From: a virus
Reading direction: 5' to 3' (one strand)
DNA length: 23,600 bases
Virus record (IMG/VR): IMGVR_UViG_3300007511_000710
Location: 1-23,600 of that record
Below are positions 1 through 10,614 of the stretch, piece by piece. The number at the start of each line of letters is the position of its first letter. Within the stretch, counting starts at the first letter, position 1. The position numbers and the translations under genes were made by a program. The notes under the pieces were generated by a model. That model made no database searches, had not been told where the DNA came from, and saw only the letters and a program-made list of their open reading frames with translations.

Positions 1-102
1 CAATATCAATGCCAATAAAAACAAAAAGGCAAGCCCTACTACAATATTAAAAAGTAAATATGTCAAGGCAACATTAGATACATATTTTGGATTATTGGCC
101 AT
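1..102 (-). CDS. Single-helix membrane protein, N-terminal fragment; possible MotB/TolR/ExbD/ZorB-type partner
   Basis: An open frame starts with ATG at 102-100 on the minus strand and runs off the left edge after 34 codons, so only the N-terminus is visible. It begins MANNPKYVSNVALTY and continues as an almost uninterrupted hydrophobic helix (about residues 12-34) rich in L, F, V and I. The start lies one base after the TGA stop (106-104) of the upstream MotA/TolQ-like gene, so the two are probably translationally coupled. A short N-terminus followed by a single membrane helix is the layout of the small subunit (MotB, TolR, ExbD, ZorB) that pairs with MotA/TolQ/ExbB-type channels, and the gene order is the usual one. 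The pairing is inferred from position and topology only. The aspartate normally found in the helix of those subunits is not visible in the 34 residues shown. A periplasmic peptidoglycan-binding or OmpA-like domain would lie outside the window. Confidence 0.6.
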   Translation of the reverse strand, partial: MANNPKYVSNVALTYLLFNIVVGLAFLFLLALIL

Positions 103-103
103 A

Positions 104-610
104 TCATTTTTCTATTAGTCTTACAATAGTAACCAATTGTATCTTAATAGCCAAAGAACTTATTAGACCAACAAGAGTTGTATACAAGGCAGTAGACATA
201 CCCAAAGACATATTAATCAAAGCCTTTTGTACTGATACTATATTAGTAACATCTAATTCATTAAATGCAGTTCCTAGCATTAAAATAAATCCTGTTACCG
301 TACCAATAAGACCTAGTACAAGACAAGATTCAGCGATAAACCATCCATCTTCTAGATCATAAACAGCTTCTTTGGGTGTAATATTTTTTTCTTTAAATGA
401 ATATACCTTTTTTCCTAACCATAAGGAAACTAGAATTAATATTCCGAGAATAATAAATCCTATCCGAGTAATATCTTCTCGGTACAGGTGATGGAAGAAA
501 TTAAAATGGTATGCTACTGTGCCTAAAGCAATTTGAGTACAGAATAAAAACCACCATCTTATTAAGATACTAGAAACATTTCCTACAATATTAGTAATTT
601 TATCTATCAT
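104..610 (-). CDS. MotA/TolQ/ExbB-like membrane channel protein
   Basis: This 168-residue membrane protein has about four hydrophobic helices (roughly residues 13-36, 47-66, 92-114 and 138-158). The last two carry the family signature: a glycine-rich GLIGTVTGFILML stretch at about 100-112 and GMSTALYTTLVGL at about 137-149. This matches the conserved third and fourth helices of MotA, TolQ and ExbB. Those proteins form pentameric inner-membrane rings around a MotB/TolR/ExbD dimer and use ion flow to do mechanical work on the cell wall or outer membrane. The first ATG is the only usable start, because an in-frame stop lies at 640-638. I see no clear Shine-Dalgarno sequence. It is transcribed away from the baseplate genes and is followed after one base by a single-helix protein. 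The family call is fairly secure; the role in a phage (envelope remodelling, lysis timing, superinfection exclusion, or defence-like activity as in Zorya ZorA) is unknown. Confidence 0.78.
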   Translation of the reverse strand: MIDKITNIVGNVSSILIRWWFLFCTQIALGTVAYHFNFFHHLYREDITRIGFIILGILILVSLWLGKKVYSFKEKNITPKEAVYDLEDGWFIAESCLVLGLIGTVTGFILMLGTAFNELDVTNIVSVQKALINMSLGMSTALYTTLVGLISSLAIKIQLVTIVRLIEK

Positions 611-659
611 ATCTATATTTAGTTTAAAATCACGGGGTTAGAGTTCGTCTGCTTTTGGC

Positions 660-667
660 GATAAATA
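660..667 (+). promoter_or_regulatory. T4-type late promoter octamer GATAAATA (upstream of gp5)
   Basis: GATAAATA fits the NATAAATA late promoter consensus of marine T4-like phages (TATAAATA in T4), which is read by the gp55-type late sigma factor. It lies 35 bases before the gp5 start. The 11 bases GATAAATATTC at 660-670 recur exactly at 10620-10630 before gp8. Confidence 0.65.
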
Positions 668-677
668 TTCCCATAGA

Positions 678-685
678 TATAAATA
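678..685 (+). promoter_or_regulatory. T4-type late promoter octamer TATAAATA (upstream of gp5, second copy)
   Basis: This is an exact match to the T4 late promoter consensus. It begins 18 bases after the start of the first octamer and ends 16 bases before the gp5 ATG, with the ribosome-binding site GGGGAA between them. If both are active, gp5 has two tandem late promoters. Confidence 0.65.
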
Positions 686-701
686 TTTTGGGGAATAATT
701 A

Positions 702-3700
702 ATGAGTTTTTTTGGCCATGAGGGTACAGTGTATGCGGCGGGTGTTGTGGAGGATCGTCACGACCCAGAAAAGTTAGGACGAGTTAGGGTTCGTTGGCTT
801 GGCATACATACCGAAGATAAACAAAACATTCTAACAAAGGATCTTCCTTGGTCTCAGGTAGTACAACCAGCGACCGGACATAACCATGCTGGAATCGGCC
901 ACAACTCTAATATTCTAGAAGGAACTTGGGTCTTTGGTATAGCGAAGGATCCAGACCTATTACAAGATTGGATGGTATTAGGTGTTTTGCCTGGTCTGAA
1001 TACTCGTACCGCATATCGTGGTGGTAAAGGTCGATCTTGGAACAAAGCAAGAGGCGATTTAAAAAAGATACAGGAAAGTTATGACCCAGCAACACCTGAT
1101 TCTGAAAAAACTTATATAGATTATGAAAAGGGATTTTATGATCCCACCACCGATTTGCGAAATGTTCCTTGGCCACCATCTACAGCAAGTTACGGAAACC
1201 CAGTAGCAGATCATACGTTCACACCAAAAGAGAAACATCCAGACCTCTCTTTGGAAGATACCGATAAAAAACAAACAAGAGTACCTAACTACTCAGATGC
1301 TGTTGGTGGCGACCATCCGTCCTTATTGGATTTAGATGGTGAAGAGGCGGCACAATGGGAGTATGAAACTACAAAGGCTCCAGAGTTTACAAGAGCAACA
1401 CATTCAGATGTACTTCATGCATTATATAAAACTACTCGTAGATTAACAGCAGATAAAAGATTTCTTCCAGAATGGACACATTTTGGAACATTCAGATGGC
1501 CCGATGCAAACACTTATACTAAACCTGGCTCAGATGAAGAACCGGAAGGACAAGAACCACAACGAGAATGGCTTGGAGATTTTGGTGATCGCAAAAAGGG
1601 CCGCGAAGGAGTTATTCTTTCAACAGGATATTTAGAACCAGATTTTTGGTCAGAGGACCGAGAATATGGAAAAACAGGAGGAACATATGGTCCATCTTTT
1701 CCTGTTACGAGAGATACACCCACATATATTCCGACAGAAGATGCTGATGTTCTCGGTATATCTCCAAATGATACACGAGCTTCATGGGGTCAAAAATCAA
1801 AAGAAGAAACTGGTTATTGGTCATTGGACGGAGAAGATTATCGCGTACCTAATCCTAGAGTACGTTGGGTTCGCAAGGAACATCTAACACCAACAGAAGA
1901 ACAAACAGTTAAGGAACTATTTGATGCCGGACATTATGGAACAGGTATCTATAATGTTAGTGACCCAGAAGCTGATGATAGTCGAAAAGATATCCGCTGG
2001 GAAGACGTTAGCAATGATGATTTGGTTGTTGTACCTACACCAGATACTAATACACTTGCTATGGGTGGTATTCCTATTGAATCTTGTGACGGAAAAACCG
2101 TAACTACAAAATCTAGTTTATGGGCTGATAAAACAACTTATTTTTCTGATCCGGGTTTATCTAGAGGTGAACCAGCAAAACCTTTAATTCAAAAAGGTGA
2201 TATTGTGCAGATAACGGGTGTCCGTGGAATGCAGGAAATCAATGGTCGTGTTTTCCGTCTAATAGGGTGTGAGGATAAAGACGGAAGTTTTACCATGAAA
2301 CTTGGCACAAAGGATGGAAAGGTTTGGTCTGGGCCAGGAGACAAAGCAGTAGATAACGAAAACTGGTCAGAGTATCTTGGTGGTGGTGTAGTCATTCCAC
2401 ATAATCCACATTGGATGTTGTGCTGGAAGGCCGATATGCGGGAACGTCAAATCAATATCGGGTCACCTGATCCAGAAACAGGCGTCAATGCAATGCACTG
2501 GAATCAACCCACGGGTGACTTCAATGCTCGTTATCCATATAACAATGTTTATGAATCTGAATCAGGTCACATCATGGAGTATGACGATACACCTGGAGCA
2601 GAACGTATCCATCAGTTCCATCGTTCCGGTACACACTACGAGATTGACCACAACGGCACACGGACAAACTATGTAAAGGGTGACAACTACGACATTCGGT
2701 TGCACGATGATTATGTTTATGTCAAGGGTAAGGTCGTACACACGTTTGACGATGAGGTAATGATACGATACAACGACCGGGCCGAGATATCTGCAGCATG
2801 GAAACTTCAATTATGGTCTGGTGGTGACTTAGATATACATTCAAAACGTAATATCAACTTCAAGGCTGATGGTGATATCAATATGCAGGCAGATGGTCAC
2901 ATCAACCTACATGGTACTGGTGTTACTGCTGAGCAAACTGATGAGTATCGTGCCGGTTCTAGAAATATGAAAGAGCGATCTAAGATTCGTATGAAGGCAG
3001 GACATATCGAGCTTGAAGCTATCGGTGATGAAACCAAACCAAAGCAATACGGCATATTTGCTCAGTCAAACCAGGCACCAATGGGTTTAAAGACACTGGC
3101 AGAAGGAGATGCTGGTGATATACACATTGCTGCTGGAGAAGATTTGGAACTTTTTGCTTGGAAGAATCAATATCGACAAGCTTGTCAAGCAAATATTTAT
3201 GATTATGTATATGGAGATTATAGGCTGGGAGTTCAGAATGGAGACATTCATGTTTATGCAACTACAGGAAAAGAAATTCATAAAATAACCCAAACTGTCG
3301 ATATTACTTCCTGTCAAGGAGACATTAAGTTAAATGCTCCATATGATATTGAGGCAATTCCTCCGGCTACTCAATATGGTAATATCTATCTGAATACTGG
3401 TCGGAAAATAGAGGCACAATCAGAAAGAGAAATATCTCTTTATAGTGAGTCATATTTAAATTTAATTTCTTGGGGAGAAGGAATGCTTCAAACTTTGGGC
3501 GGTCCTTTGGGTATTAAAGCAAAATCTGGTTGTTATGATGATGGTAAAGAAGAAGGTCAGGGCATGATTGATATGCAGGCCGATGTAGCTGTTAATATAG
3601 CTCCAACGCCAAACTTTGGCCAGGCCTCGGTTATAGAAGCGGAGATTCCCACTCCCATAGACACTGAAGCTAGTCAGAAAAGTGAAACTACTTGGATTCC

Positions 3701-4394
3701 AGAAACAATGGAATTACTTTCAATTGATTTGCCAAATCCAAGGCCAGCTGCTGGTACAAGTGTCACTCAATTAGCTTTAAATGCTAATAACCTAGAAGCT
3801 GGTATTGGAGGTGAGAATATTCGTAACCTTCACGACACAATTGAAAACTTGCAAGAGGGACTAAGTGCATATGTAACAAAAATGTATCCTTCAACATCCG
3901 ATAAAAAAGTTTACATTGAAGATCAAAGTGAAATGATTATAACTGGAGTTTCAACACATGATTTAGAATCGCCGTGGAATGGATATGAAGCAAAAAATAA
4001 AACGGTAAGGCCTTTGGGAGTAGAAAATGCCAAAAGATTTACAGCAGTTCCTGCTCTTTGTGATACTAGCGAACAAGCGGCAGTAATTGAACCTTGCAGA
4101 GTGATACCACCTATGCCTTGTGAAGTACAGTTTAATTTTTGGTTATCTATATACTCCGCGGAAACTTTTGCAGGAGATGGAGTAACCCCTATATTCTTAA
4201 CCGTCGCTCAGTCAGAAGCTACTCATATTGGTGTTATTATAAATTCCGGCGAGGGTATTTATGATTGTTTAGTACTTGATGCTGACTACACACTTACCGA
4301 TGATCCTCTTATTCCTGGAATAGCAACATTCGATTTCTCAGCGGGATGGGGAGCGCCAGCATCAGGGTCAGTAGTTTATGCATTTTATAATTAA
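702..4394 (+). CDS. 5: gp5-like baseplate hub / central spike protein (no lysozyme domain)
   Basis: This 1230-residue protein is probably the central hub and spike that pierces the outer membrane. Residues 1 to about 110 form the gp5/VgrG-type OB-fold (EKLGRVRVRWLG near the start, WMVLGVLPG near 90-98). Residues about 587-700 carry the VgrG-like core (ERIHQFHRSGTHYEIDHNG, about 632-650). From about 705 to 965 there are short beta-strand repeats of the DGDINMQADGHINLHG type, expected for a trimeric beta-helix spike. T4 gp5 is 575 residues and contains a T4-lysozyme domain; I see none here. The space between OB-fold and spike (about 115-580) is instead a long polar, W/P/D-rich region with an E1-FCCH-like module (GDIVQITGVRGMQEINGR, about 499-516). 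The C-terminus (about 1155-1230) resembles the DYTL...APASG tail-fibre module. The start has a good GGGGAA site and two late promoters upstream. Lack of the lysozyme domain is, to my knowledge, shared by marine T4-like phages. Confidence 0.85.
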   Translation: MSFFGHEGTVYAAGVVEDRHDPEKLGRVRVRWLGIHTEDKQNILTKDLPWSQVVQPATGHNHAGIGHNSNILEGTWVFGIAKDPDLLQDWMVLGVLPGLNTRTAYRGGKGRSWNKARGDLKKIQESYDPATPDSEKTYIDYEKGFYDPTTDLRNVPWPPSTASYGNPVADHTFTPKEKHPDLSLEDTDKKQTRVPNYSDAVGGDHPSLLDLDGEEAAQWEYETTKAPEFTRATHSDVLHALYKTTRRLTADKRFLPEWTHFGTFRWPDANTYTKPGSDEEPEGQEPQREWLGDFGDRKKGREGVILSTGYLEPDFWSEDREYGKTGGTYGPSFPVTRDTPTYIPTEDADVLGISPNDTRASWGQKSKEETGYWSLDGEDYRVPNPRVRWVRKEHLTPTEEQTVKELFDAGHYGTGIYNVSDPEADDSRKDIRWEDVSNDDLVVVPTPDTNTLAMGGIPIESCDGKTVTTKSSLWADKTTYFSDPGLSRGEPAKPLIQKGDIVQITGVRGMQEINGRVFRLIGCEDKDGSFTMKLGTKDGKVWSGPGDKAVDNENWSEYLGGGVVIPHNPHWMLCWKADMRERQINIGSPDPETGVNAMHWNQPTGDFNARYPYNNVYESESGHIMEYDDTPGAERIHQFHRSGTHYEIDHNGTRTNYVKGDNYDIRLHDDYVYVKGKVVHTFDDEVMIRYNDRAEISAAWKLQLWSGGDLDIHSKRNINFKADGDINMQADGHINLHGTGVTAEQTDEYRAGSRNMKERSKIRMKAGHIELEAIGDETKPKQYGIFAQSNQAPMGLKTLAEGDAGDIHIAAGEDLELFAWKNQYRQACQANIYDYVYGDYRLGVQNGDIHVYATTGKEIHKITQTVDITSCQGDIKLNAPYDIEAIPPATQYGNIYLNTGRKIEAQSEREISLYSESYLNLISWGEGMLQTLGGPLGIKAKSGCYDDGKEEGQGMIDMQADVAVNIAPTPNFGQASVIEAEIPTPIDTEASQKSETTWIPETMELLSIDLPNPRPAAGTSVTQLALNANNLEAGIGGENIRNLHDTIENLQEGLSAYVTKMYPSTSDKKVYIEDQSEMIITGVSTHDLESPWNGYEAKNKTVRPLGVENAKRFTAVPALCDTSEQAAVIEPCRVIPPMPCEVQFNFWLSIYSAETFAGDGVTPIFLTVAQSEATHIGVIINSGEGIYDCLVLDADYTLTDDPLIPGIATFDFSAGWGAPASGSVVYAFYN

Positions 4395-4408
4395 AATAGG
4401 AGAAAAAA

Positions 4409-4642
4409 ATGTTAAAAAATTTAATTGAAAAAGTGAGAGAAAAAGAATTAAGTTTGGGTGCCCTTATGGTACTCATCGGTGTACTAGTCTGGATTATTCC
4501 AGTAAAACTAGTTTTAACATTATTCGTCATTTATGGTTTAGTATTAATCTTCTGGAAGAAAGAAGATAAAGTAAGAGATGTTCACCATCATCACCATCAC
4601 AATGGCAATAGCAAGAAGAAGGTGAAACGCAAGAATGGCTAA
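4409..4642 (+). CDS. Small two-helix membrane protein with native hexahistidine run
   Basis: This 77-residue protein starts at an ATG with a strong AGGAG site (4398-4402), 14 bases after the gp5 stop. Residues 15-31 and 32-49 form two short hydrophobic segments broken by IIPVK, so it is probably a membrane hairpin. The tail from about 50 on is highly charged: KKEDKVRD, six consecutive histidines (59-64), then NGNSKKKVKRKNG. Small size, a hairpin and a strongly basic C-terminus are features of small phage holins, but they also fit other small membrane proteins, and no signature settles it. It lies between gp5 and gp25 and overlaps the next small gene by 8 bases, so it is probably made late with the baseplate. 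I do not recognise the family. Confidence 0.7.
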   Translation: MLKNLIEKVREKELSLGALMVLIGVLVWIIPVKLVLTLFVIYGLVLIFWKKEDKVRDVHHHHHHNGNSKKKVKRKNG

Positions 4643-4775
4643 ACAAATAAAAACTCTAGCTATGAAACTAGAGCCAGTAAAAAAGAGAACATCTATTGGT
4701 AACTCTGTACGTTCTAGGCCCAAAAATAAAAATAAGAAACGGGACTATAAAAAGTACAGAGGTCAGGGCAAATAG
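4635..4775 (+). CDS. Small, highly basic conserved-looking protein (46 residues)
   Basis: An ATG at 4635 opens a 46-codon frame ending with TAG at 4773-4775. It overlaps the end of the previous gene by 8 bases and is preceded by AAGGTG (4619-4624). The product starts MAKQIKTLAMKLEPVKKRT and ends RPKNKNKKRDYKKYRGQGK. It is dominated by K and R with almost no acidic residues, so it should bind nucleic acid or an acidic protein surface. Similar K/R-rich proteins ending in a YRGQG-type tail occur, as far as I recall, beside baseplate genes in marine T4-like phages, which supports it being a real gene. Its role is unknown; a tail or baseplate assembly factor or minor virion protein is possible. 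Its last base begins the GATAAATA motif before gp25. Confidence 0.72.
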   Translation: MAKQIKTLAMKLEPVKKRTSIGNSVRSRPKNKNKKRDYKKYRGQGK

Positions 4776-4782
4776 ATAAATA
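4775..4782 (+). promoter_or_regulatory. T4-type late promoter octamer GATAAATA (upstream of gp25)
   Basis: GATAAATA overlaps the stop codon of the small basic gene and ends 7 bases before the gp25 ATG at 4790. At T4 late promoters transcription begins about six bases after the octamer, which would put the start almost at the gp25 ATG and leave no room for a ribosome-binding site. It is either a promoter giving a leaderless mRNA or a chance match. Confidence 0.5.
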
Positions 4783-4789
4783 TTAGTAC

Positions 4790-5248
4790 ATGACTACACA
4801 ATACAATACAGGGTTTTCTGATGCTCAAGCTGTTAATGATAGCGAGCGCAGTAATTTTATTTACAAGGACTTAAATCTTTTCTTTACGCCTAATCCGGTA
4901 ACTAAAGATATTTCCAAAGTTACAGATATTCAAGCGATTAAAAGATCCGTTCGTAATCTTGTTTTATTGAATCCGGGTGAGAAACCATTTCACCCTGAGA
5001 TTGGTACTGGTATTCGTGATGCGTTATTTGAGAATTTTACTCCTCCGGTTCGTGAGGCTTTAAGAAGCAAAATAGAAAATATTATTAAACTTTATGAACC
5101 TAGGGTAACTGTAATAAGTGTATCATTTAATGATATATCCAATGCACGTTTGGATAATAACCGATTGGATTGTACAATTCAATTTATTATTAACAATGTT
5201 CCTCAAAATGTTGAGGAAGTTGAAGTAATGCTACAGAGAATACGATAA
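4790..5248 (+). CDS. 25: gp25-like baseplate wedge protein
   Basis: This 152-residue protein belongs to the GPW/gp25 family, the small wedge subunit found in contractile tails and type VI secretion systems (TssE). The family region spans about residues 40-140: VTDIQAIKRSVRNLVLLNPGEKPF, then the conserved HPEIGTGIRDALFENF, and later LYEPRVTVISV, which contains the EPR motif. In T4, gp25 joins gp6 and gp53 at the inner baseplate, where the sheath starts. The stop overlaps the gp6 start as TAATG (5246-5250), so the two are probably translated together. No clear Shine-Dalgarno precedes the ATG; a GATAAATA late promoter motif ends 7 bases before it. In T4 gene 25 lies elsewhere, away from genes 5-8; here it sits between gp5 and gp6. 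Confidence 0.93.
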   Translation: MTTQYNTGFSDAQAVNDSERSNFIYKDLNLFFTPNPVTKDISKVTDIQAIKRSVRNLVLLNPGEKPFHPEIGTGIRDALFENFTPPVREALRSKIENIIKLYEPRVTVISVSFNDISNARLDNNRLDCTIQFIINNVPQNVEEVEVMLQRIR

Positions 5249-7149
5249 TGGCAGCAGGAATAAACACTAAAGGCAAGATGCAGATCACGGAACTTGATTT
5301 CGATGGCATCAAGAATAATTTAAAAACATATTTGAAAGGTCAGTCAGATTTTACTGATTATGACTTTGAAGGTTCAGGTATGAATATTTTGTTAGACACT
5401 CTTGCCTACAATACTCACTATAATGCATTTTTAGCTAATATGTTGGCTAACGAAATGTTCCTAGATACAGCACAGAAAAGAAACTCAGTTGCTTCTCATG
5501 CTAAATCTTTAGGCTATACACCAACATCAGTAAAAGCGCCTGTAGCATATGTAAAGGCTCAGGTGAATAATGCTACTTCTTCAAGTATCACAATGCCAGA
5601 AGGATATTCTTTTACTACAACAATTAATAGTGTATCTTATCAATTTGTAAATACTGAAAGTAGAACAATTCAACCAGATGCTGGGCTTTATGTATTTGGG
5701 CCCACGGCGGGTATTCCTGTTTATGAAGGTACTTGGGTTACAACTAGATTTACTGTTGATTTGAATGATGCTGATCAAAGGTTTATTATACCGAATGATA
5801 ATGTAGATATGTCTACATTGAAAGTGCAAGTTCAAAATAGTGTAGGAGATACTACCACCGAAACATATACTAAAGCAGATTCACTTGTGGATGTTACAAG
5901 TACTACTAAAGCTTATTTCTGTCAAGAGACAGTTAATAACGAATGGGAAGTTTATTTTGGAGATGATGTTGTTGGTAAGGCTTTAGTTGATGGTAATATT
6001 GTTATTTTGAAATATGTCGTCACTAATGGTCTTGCTGCTAATGGTGCAACAACATTTACTGCCGGTGGTTCAATATCTGGTTTTGGTGATATTACAACTA
6101 CAACAATGACCTCGGCTGCTGGTGGTGCTGTTGCTGAAAATCTTGATTCCATAAAATACAATGCCCCATTCAGTTATGCGGCACAGAATAGAACAGTTAC
6201 GGCTAAAGATTATGCAGCGATTGTTCCTAAAATATATCCAAATGTAGAATCTATTTCTGTGTGGGGTGGTGAATATGAAGATCCTGCAGTTTATGGTAAA
6301 GTATATATTAGTATTAGGCCCAAAGCTGGTAACACATTAACCGAATCTACTAAAAATTCTATTGTAGCATCATTAGAAGAATATAATGTAGCTTCTGTCA
6401 CACCTGTTATTTTGAATCCAGAAACTATTAAGATTATTCCTAAAATAAATTTTAAGTTTAATAATACAACAACAACTAAGAGTAAAGAAGATTTAGCTGC
6501 TCTTATCACAACTGATATTACAACATGGTCTGACGATAATCTAGAGAAACATGAAGCTATCTTTAGATATTCACCATTCACTACTATGATTGATAATGTT
6601 GATCCTTCTATATTATCTAATATCACTACAATCAAAACGAGTAAAACATTCTTGCCTTCATTAAGTACACAAATGAAGTATGAGATATCATTCAATAATG
6701 CTATATATCATCCCCATGACGGCCATCAATCAAAAACTACGGCTACTTCAGATTCTTCAGGAGTAGTGGGATCAACTGGTTTTAAATATACGGGTGATAC
6801 TAATGTTTATTATTATGAAGATGATGGATACGGTAAAATCAAATCTTATTATATATCCGGCACAAGCAAAGCCTATAAAACATCAGGGCCAGTCGGTACT
6901 GTCGATTATGATACAGGAAAAATAATTTTAGATGCTGAAGATATTGCGTCTGTTGAGAATTATGATGGAACAACACAAAAACAGATTCGTATCACAGTTC
7001 AACCTTCATCTAATGATATCGTGCCTGTAAGAAATCAAGTATTGGAAATAGATTTATATAATATGTCTGTTGTTGGTATATCTGATAGTATTGCTTCTGG
7101 TTCATCCGATGGTGGAAGTTTATATAGCACGACAACTTCTTATAACTAA
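5248..7149 (+). CDS. 6: gp6-like baseplate wedge protein (Baseplate_J family)
   Basis: This 633-residue protein (T4 gp6 is 660) forms the ring connecting the wedges of the baseplate. The N-terminus has the typical opening LDFDGIKNNLKTYLKGQ, then DYDFEGSGMNILLDTLAYNTHYNAF and a LANEMFLDTA helix within residues 15-80. These are hallmarks of gp6 in T4-like phages. The middle carries the Baseplate_J-type region (YFGDDVVGKALVDGNIV, about residues 236-252) followed by NRTVTAKDYAAIVPKIYP near 315-330. The C-terminal third is beta-rich and ends in a Ser/Gly/Thr tail. It overlaps gp25 by one base at its start and gp7 by one base at its end (TAATG at both), so it probably depends on translational coupling. 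A paired dimer of gp6 per wedge is known for T4. Confidence 0.93.
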   Translation: MAAGINTKGKMQITELDFDGIKNNLKTYLKGQSDFTDYDFEGSGMNILLDTLAYNTHYNAFLANMLANEMFLDTAQKRNSVASHAKSLGYTPTSVKAPVAYVKAQVNNATSSSITMPEGYSFTTTINSVSYQFVNTESRTIQPDAGLYVFGPTAGIPVYEGTWVTTRFTVDLNDADQRFIIPNDNVDMSTLKVQVQNSVGDTTTETYTKADSLVDVTSTTKAYFCQETVNNEWEVYFGDDVVGKALVDGNIVILKYVVTNGLAANGATTFTAGGSISGFGDITTTTMTSAAGGAVAENLDSIKYNAPFSYAAQNRTVTAKDYAAIVPKIYPNVESISVWGGEYEDPAVYGKVYISIRPKAGNTLTESTKNSIVASLEEYNVASVTPVILNPETIKIIPKINFKFNNTTTTKSKEDLAALITTDITTWSDDNLEKHEAIFRYSPFTTMIDNVDPSILSNITTIKTSKTFLPSLSTQMKYEISFNNAIYHPHDGHQSKTTATSDSSGVVGSTGFKYTGDTNVYYYEDDGYGKIKSYYISGTSKAYKTSGPVGTVDYDTGKIILDAEDIASVENYDGTTQKQIRITVQPSSNDIVPVRNQVLEIDLYNMSVVGISDSIASGSSDGGSLYSTTTSYN

Positions 7150-10606: not shown

Positions 10607-10614
10607 TATAAATA
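10607..10614 (+). promoter_or_regulatory. T4-type late promoter octamer TATAAATA (upstream of gp8)
   Basis: This is an exact T4 late promoter consensus in the 47-base gap between gp7 and gp8, 31 bases before the gp8 ATG. It is the first of two tandem octamers here, echoing the pair before gp5. Confidence 0.65.

Follow-up and report, generated by a model that had tools for sequence, protein, structure and literature searches.

The window analysed here is the whole of a 23,600 nt stretch of marine phage DNA (IMG/VR record IMGVR_UViG_3300007511_000710, positions 1-23,600). Two minus-strand genes, A and B, occupy its left end, and the plus strand beside A carries a T4-type baseplate region with a gp5-like hub, a gp25-like protein and further wedge proteins (Table 1). 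A search with PF01618 (MotA_ExbB) aligned residues 94-154 of the A protein at E=1.3e-4 and 22.1 bits, narrowly missing the Pfam cut-off of 22.9, and close relatives of the protein pass this cut-off. Gene B starts at position 102, one base past the stop of A, and its product has a short, polar N-terminus followed by one hydrophobic helix. An earlier note on this DNA, made from the letters alone, had described a MotA/TolQ/ExbB-like protein of 168 residues with a single-helix partner one base beyond its stop, and both descriptions hold. Only 34 residues of B are present in the window; thus the periplasmic part of B and the rest of the unit were taken from related contigs.

Another contig, L007, matches the window base for base over 276-5610 (5,335 bases), the junction between A and the gp5-like gene included, so the gene order is not an accident of a single contig. 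A T4-type late promoter, TATAAATA, lies at 678-685 on the plus strand and is directed at the gp5-like gene. The only other TATAAATA in the window is at 10607-10614, and each is located just 5′ of plus-strand structural genes, as expected of T4 late promoters. When a promoter of this type was sought before A, none was found directly facing the operon. Separately, a 77-aa ORF amid the baseplate genes has hydrophobic stretches and a VHHHHHHNGNSKKKVKRKNG tail; its matches are weak only, to families of unknown function and to a spanin.

Table 1. Features in the window and in related loci (locus labels precede coordinates outside the window)
Feature	Location	Strand	Basis
Gene A: 168-aa four-helix MotA/TolQ/ExbB-like channel subunit	104-610	-	ORF + Pfam
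Gene B, first 34 residues: short N-terminus and membrane helix of the putative axle subunit; truncated by the contig end	1-102	-	
Divergent intergenic region between A and the gp5-like gene	611-701	none	
Baseplate hub (gp5-like) gene, a neighbour outside the system	702-4394	+	
77-aa ORF amid baseplate genes	4409-4642		
Examples of ClpP-, ClpS-, DnaK- or Hsp20-type neighbours	L002:307-879, L024:569-1150, L045:5262-5585, L082:3805-4122		
Trypsin-like protease genes in three rhizobiophages	L011:4244-5143, L012:3598-4245, L013:7480-8172		
Cronobacter phage CR3 gp055	L014:2729-4738		
Tandem B genes	L199:6018-7254		
PQQ-dehydrogenase-like genes	L174:7273-9483, L170:7124-9346, L157:7131-9326, others		
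Genes preceding the operon in a Pelagibacteraceae MAG	L105:2-5342		By eye

A three-gene operon in phages and bacterial chromosomes

Searching IMG/VR with the A protein returned seven loci, several with complete downstream genes, and a profile of B recovered 256 viral loci on contigs of up to 328 kb, 80 of which were retained for analysis. A third gene, C, follows B; it had been missed in the earlier note because it lies off the contig. The predicted products are about 160 aa (A), about 200-270 aa (B) and about 150-300 aa (C) in length. Across 96 loci, A is present in 92, B in 94 and C in 93. The order is A-B-C on one strand wherever it was scored (about 90 loci), and the genes mostly overlap or are separated by a few bases. 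The site of the operon within phage genomes varies and is not always next to baseplate genes. The motor pair does stand beside the baseplate genes in the window and L007, as the earlier note had emphasized; however, the proximity is incidental, since relatives carry the operon elsewhere.

Among cultured phages, B was found in 27 records, all of them Rhizobium or Sinorhizobium phages, including the temperate phage 16-3, and the full A-B-C trio, labelled hypothetical, is present in all six rhizobiophage lineages opened. In Sinorhizobium phage 16-3 genes A, B and C correspond to p038, p040 and p042. B is single copy in each of 39 phage records searched whole. Single-sequence searches of cultured phages gave matches with B and none with the A protein of the window. 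Neither B nor C could be placed convincingly in a family of PHROGs, NCBIfam or PADLOC. One paper applies the name ExbB to a gene of Lentisphaerae phages (PMC11361711), and no description of the A-B-C operon was found in the open-licence literature. ClpP-like genes recur upstream of A in several phage clades, and ClpS-like, DnaK or Hsp20 genes are found around the operon. Likewise, a trypsin-like protease gene is located near the operon in three rhizobiophages.

The earlier proposal of a phage-borne pair is borne out by viral contigs and cultured rhizobiophages; however, bacterial chromosomes carry the operon too, and the system is therefore not phage-specific. Chromosomal operons are present in dozens of SAR116 genomes, in PS1, OCS116, one Pelagibacteraceae genome, Gammaproteobacteria and Desulfobacterales. 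Of 385 Alphaproteobacteria genomes sampled, 56 encode B, some of them on contigs of 3.4 to 8.0 Mb. Most flanking genes read in Alphaproteobacteria are of ordinary chromosomal kinds, one locus (L196) is a likely prophage, and in most genomes the operon is single copy.

Phage and cell copies interleave in the tree, with nine label changes, at least six of them forced by supported branches, although some contigs of metagenome-assembled genomes (MAGs) are misbinned phage sequence. The operon seems to have been transferred between bacteria and phages on several occasions. One contig filed under a Chloroflexi MAG (L098; PCAX01000070.1) encodes a B identical to that of viral contig L038 and looks like a misbinned phage fragment; L097, L099, L146 and L152 may be further cases.

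The neighbours of the cellular operons are varied, and PQQ dehydrogenases recur, with 9 of 114 neighbour proteins matching PF01011. A PQQ-dehydrogenase-like gene is placed right after C, convergent to the operon, in chromosomes of PS1, OCS116 and Gammaproteobacteria. In the Pelagibacteraceae MAG an apparent TonB receptor, ABC transporter genes and a beta-propeller protein precede the operon; judged by eye, these genes resemble a PQQ- or lanthanide-related cluster.

Ion-path residues of A and B and the periplasmic domain of B

PF01618 matches 50 of 51 representatives of A, with a best E-value of 2e-10. When the A profile was compared with all PDB sequences, the best 16 matches were all members of the MotA/TolQ/ExbB superfamily (MotA, ZorA, TolQ, MotA/TolQ/ExbB-domain proteins, PomA and ExbB), the first of them MotA at E 4e-4, so the similarity is not due to chance. 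The PADLOC profile for ZorA matches A weakly, at E 0.0015 in the window and 2.5e-7 in a SAR116 copy.

In structures of MotAB and ZorAB the ion path consists of a critical Asp of the B helix packed on a Ser/Thr ring contributed by A, the Asp being D24/D21 in ZorB and D32 in MotB (PMC11890865, PMC9389320). In the proteins considered here, Asp15 of B is present in 53/53 phage and 28/30 cell representatives, the remaining two cellular copies lacking Asp. Thr145 of A is found in 53/53 phage and 28/29 cell copies, and Thr104 in 50/53 and 29/29, respectively. With the Thr positions in TM3 and TM4 of A and the membrane Asp of B retained, which are the hallmarks of ion-driven 5:2 motors, A and B very probably form a working motor, and assignment of the operon to the 5:2 motor class is made with high confidence. 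The pairing of a channel with a single-helix partner in the earlier note is likewise supported by homology, by the gene order and by conservation of the Asp and Thr residues. The 5:2 stoichiometry itself, along with assembly, ion flow and motion, would be as in the characterized members of the family.

The B of the window has Tyr15, a position occupied by Asp in all other phage copies. Comparison with a 97%-identical relative showed 19 differences, 9 in the first ~450 bases and 10 in the last ~130, at the contig end; among the contig-end differences are the change of Asp15 to Tyr in B and replacement of Phe by Leu at two positions. Poor sequence quality at the end of the contig probably accounts for Tyr15, and it is conceivable that this copy of B, or of the operon, is truly inactive. 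An exact search for further contigs spanning the Asp/Tyr site returned only two relatives already known and none of the window's own lineage.

The phage forms of A are minimal. Between Asp46 and the glycine of TM3 there are 38-71 residues, and 23-42 residues follow Thr145 (up to 56 in cells), leaving no room for the flagellar torque domain or the Zorya tail. The operon shares with the MotA-MotB stator a four-helix A and a single Asp-bearing helix in B, in addition to the top PDB match of A; however, A lacks space for the torque-generating cytoplasmic domain, B lacks the OmpA-type domain, there is an extra subunit in C and no flagellar genes were seen near the operon. Zorya ZorA-ZorB belongs to the same superfamily, and ZorA is among both the PDB and the PADLOC matches, yet A is without the long ZorA tail and B without the OmpA-like domain. 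No ZorC, ZorD or ZorE was noticed among the neighbour genes read. A further parallel in layout is with ExbB-ExbD-TonB and TolQ-TolR-TolA, likewise single operons for three inner-membrane proteins with periplasmic parts, in which A is homologous (PF01618, with TolQ and ExbB in the PDB list) and B has a membrane Asp. In contrast to these systems, B here has no ExbD/TolR domain, A has no large cytoplasmic loop and tail, and C has two helices and matches neither TonB nor TolA.

The AlphaFold model of B (mean pLDDT 80.5), predicted like that of C from alignments from which rows of annotated genome records were left out, has a helix at residues 10-35 and an all-beta domain at 50-193. Structural alignment of the beta domain with VIA-align placed it on TerD structures at Z 11.8 (3ibz, 134 residues), 10.3, 10.2 and 9.5, the last being 2kxt, the calcium-binding Klebsiella TerD; the next unrelated fold scored Z 6.5. 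Foldseek alone placed DUF4425 first, with weak E-values. Among 52 B proteins, no Pfam match at E 0.1 was obtained for OmpA, ExbD or TolR domains or for TerD (PF02342). Alignment with hhalign against a small set of three TerD sequences gave nothing, and the B profile had only chance-level matches among PDB sequences. As modelled, the periplasmic part of B is of TerD-like fold, and the claim is limited to fold since the tie to TerD is absent by sequence methods. The MotB/TolR/ExbD/ZorB layout envisaged in the earlier note therefore stands for the Asp-bearing helix; beyond it, the complete partners in relatives have no OmpA, ExbD or TolR domain and a TerD-like beta domain instead.

TerD proteins, which are calcium-binding and associated with tellurite resistance, share with B the predicted fold (Z 9.5-11.8), and B has invariant acidic loop residues; those read have no membrane helix, unlike B. 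Asp63, Asp65, Asp91 and Glu115 are invariant and Asp92 is nearly so, a pattern that would suit metal binding. A PQQ-dehydrogenase neighbour and a possibly metal-binding B might hint at the cellular role. Two variants of the domain were also seen. The 669-aa hypothetical protein gp055 of Cronobacter phage CR3, conserved in CR3-like phages, contains a beta domain resembling that of B (phrog_1735), and no membrane helix was called in it. At L199, B genes are in tandem, and an apparent signal peptide replaces the membrane helix in the second, which suggests a secreted version of the domain.

Subunit C, its lysozyme fusion and nearby lysis genes

C is a two-helix protein in which net charge is positive only in the inter-helix loop. 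This pattern predicts that both ends, the soluble part included, lie in the periplasm. The soluble domain is modelled at low confidence as OB-like, with a weak fold match (Z 7.4), and no TonB or TolA match was found in Pfam among 51 C proteins at E 0.1. The operon was also considered as one of MotB, ExbD, TolR or Zorya type and this was rejected, given the TerD-like fold of B, the minimal A and a two-helix C with a predicted periplasmic domain.

In 8 of the 51 C representatives, corresponding to 13 loci, a GH24 lysozyme is fused in frame after C. The fused domain matches PF00959 (best E 5.8e-50) and endolysin family phrog_7 (3e-63), and the catalytic spacing E-8-D-5-T is kept at all 13 loci. 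A start codon is present at the C/lysozyme junction in every case (ATG in eleven, GTG in two), preceded by a purine-rich, Shine-Dalgarno-like stretch that is AAGGAGAT-like at some of the 13. With this internal start the gene can yield both a membrane-tethered C-lysozyme and a free lysozyme, and the free form is probably made as well. The fused forms cluster as one clade in the tree and are therefore counted as one origin, so that the fusion is probably a single event. A membrane-tethered GH24 lysozyme is reminiscent of the SAR endolysins (phage 21 R21), which are tethered through N-terminal helices; however, the tether here is subunit C of a motor operon, and between it and the lysozyme lie a further domain and an internal start codon.

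Endolysin, i-spanin or o-spanin genes adjoin the operon in the L042, L046 and L089 lineages. Phage-lysozyme, i-spanin and M15-endolysin families were mapped genome-wide, the families having been picked partly after the neighbours were seen. Of 13 phage lineages in which a lysis gene could be detected, 4 have one within 2 kb of the operon, against 0.84 expected (P about 0.007, with families partly post hoc); for the remaining nine, the distance to the detected lysis genes ranges from 5 to 230 kb. The link is suggestive overall, real in places and not constant. A constant place for the operon in the phage lysis cassette was rejected on the same count.

Possible functions of the operon

On the reading adopted here, the operon encodes an envelope motor that bacteria and their phages have exchanged. 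With moderate confidence, the three genes interrupted by the end of the window are taken to specify a compact inner-membrane motor that is driven by ions and belongs to the 5:2 superfamily (MotAB, ExbBD, TolQR, ZorAB); in phages it would act on the envelope of the infected cell. A would be the ring and B the axle, the membrane Asp of B shuttling ions past the Thr ring of A and its TerD-fold domain being placed in the periplasm, whereas C, as a third subunit in the TonB/TolA position, could transmit force. Action of the products in the periplasm is considered likely. The homology, the operon, the conserved ion-path residues and the C-lysozyme fusion can be read from the sequences directly.

For phages, wall remodelling or a lysis step would be the most plausible use because one clade covalently joins C to a GH24 lysozyme, and such a role is put forward tentatively, at rather less than even probability. 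It had been among the suggestions of the earlier note, to which the fusion lends support; it is plausible, but association with lysis genes is not constant. In bacteria the motor presumably serves a housekeeping envelope job, and the chromosomal copies cannot be lysis genes in the phage sense. Against the main reading are the confinement of the fusion to one clade, the internal start that may give free lysozyme, the distance of lysis genes in 9 of 13 lineages and the finding that no T4-type late promoter faces the operon; the two cellular copies of B without the Asp, the Tyr of the window and the weak fold match of C also count against it. A more ambitious proposal is that the operon represents a family of envelope motors not described before, driven by protons or sodium, in which the axle carries a TerD-fold domain and a third subunit serves as transducer, and that phages have converted it into a wall-cutting device coupled to the motor or gated by the gradient; in its entirety this is rather unlikely.

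The operon stands alone in many bacterial chromosomes, mostly at one copy per genome, and the interleaving of phage and cell copies is as expected if phages borrowed the system to keep a normal host envelope function, such as outer-membrane or wall maintenance or energized uptake, running during host shutdown, with no special part in lysis. A variable position in phage genomes, often by ClpP-, ClpS- or DnaK-type genes, is consistent with a host-derived helper of this kind, as are the cellular PQQ-dehydrogenase neighbours and, at L105, the apparent TonB-receptor and ABC-transport genes. This is a substantial possibility, although short of an even one, and it leaves unexplained the conserved C-lysozyme fusion and the spanins or endolysins next to the operon in three other lineages.

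Alternatively, the motor could restrain membrane-tethered C, together with the lysozyme in the fused clade, for as long as the proton gradient stands, with collapse of the gradient causing release or activation, as for SAR endolysins but motor-gated. Such a timer would suit C, which is predicted to form a membrane hairpin and to expose its soluble part, along with the lysozyme, to the periplasm, and intact catalytic residues and nearby lysis genes in 4 of 13 lineages also favour it. However, the fusion occurs in one clade only, the internal start suggests that free lysozyme is made too, no late promoter faces the operon and cellular homologues exist; gating of this type is therefore unlikely. 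Poisoning of host TolQR, ExbBD or Zorya motors by mixed assembly with A and B, or blocking of superinfecting phages, is very improbable: the weak ZorA similarity of A is expected of any superfamily member, the ion-path residues and third subunit are strongly conserved, unlike in a dominant-negative fragment, bacterial chromosomes keep the whole operon and no Zorya partner genes were seen among the neighbours read. Likewise, no positive evidence emerged for the Zorya-type defence, Tol-Pal mimicry or superinfection exclusion raised in the earlier note.

The preferred reading remains an envelope motor exchanged between bacteria and phages. The well-studied 5:2 motors (flagellar, Ton, Tol, gliding and Zorya) are cellular. 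The engine itself is of this known type; the axle domain and the third part are new, and no description was found of its setting in phages. Since Sinorhizobium phage 16-3 carries the operon, the question is open to classical phage genetics. A branch that is complete, conserved and apparently unnamed, present in marine bacteria and in many phages (some with jumbo-sized genomes), would amount to a new type of motor. It would show that phages carry ion-powered envelope machines, and may provide a lysis step coupled to the ion gradient.
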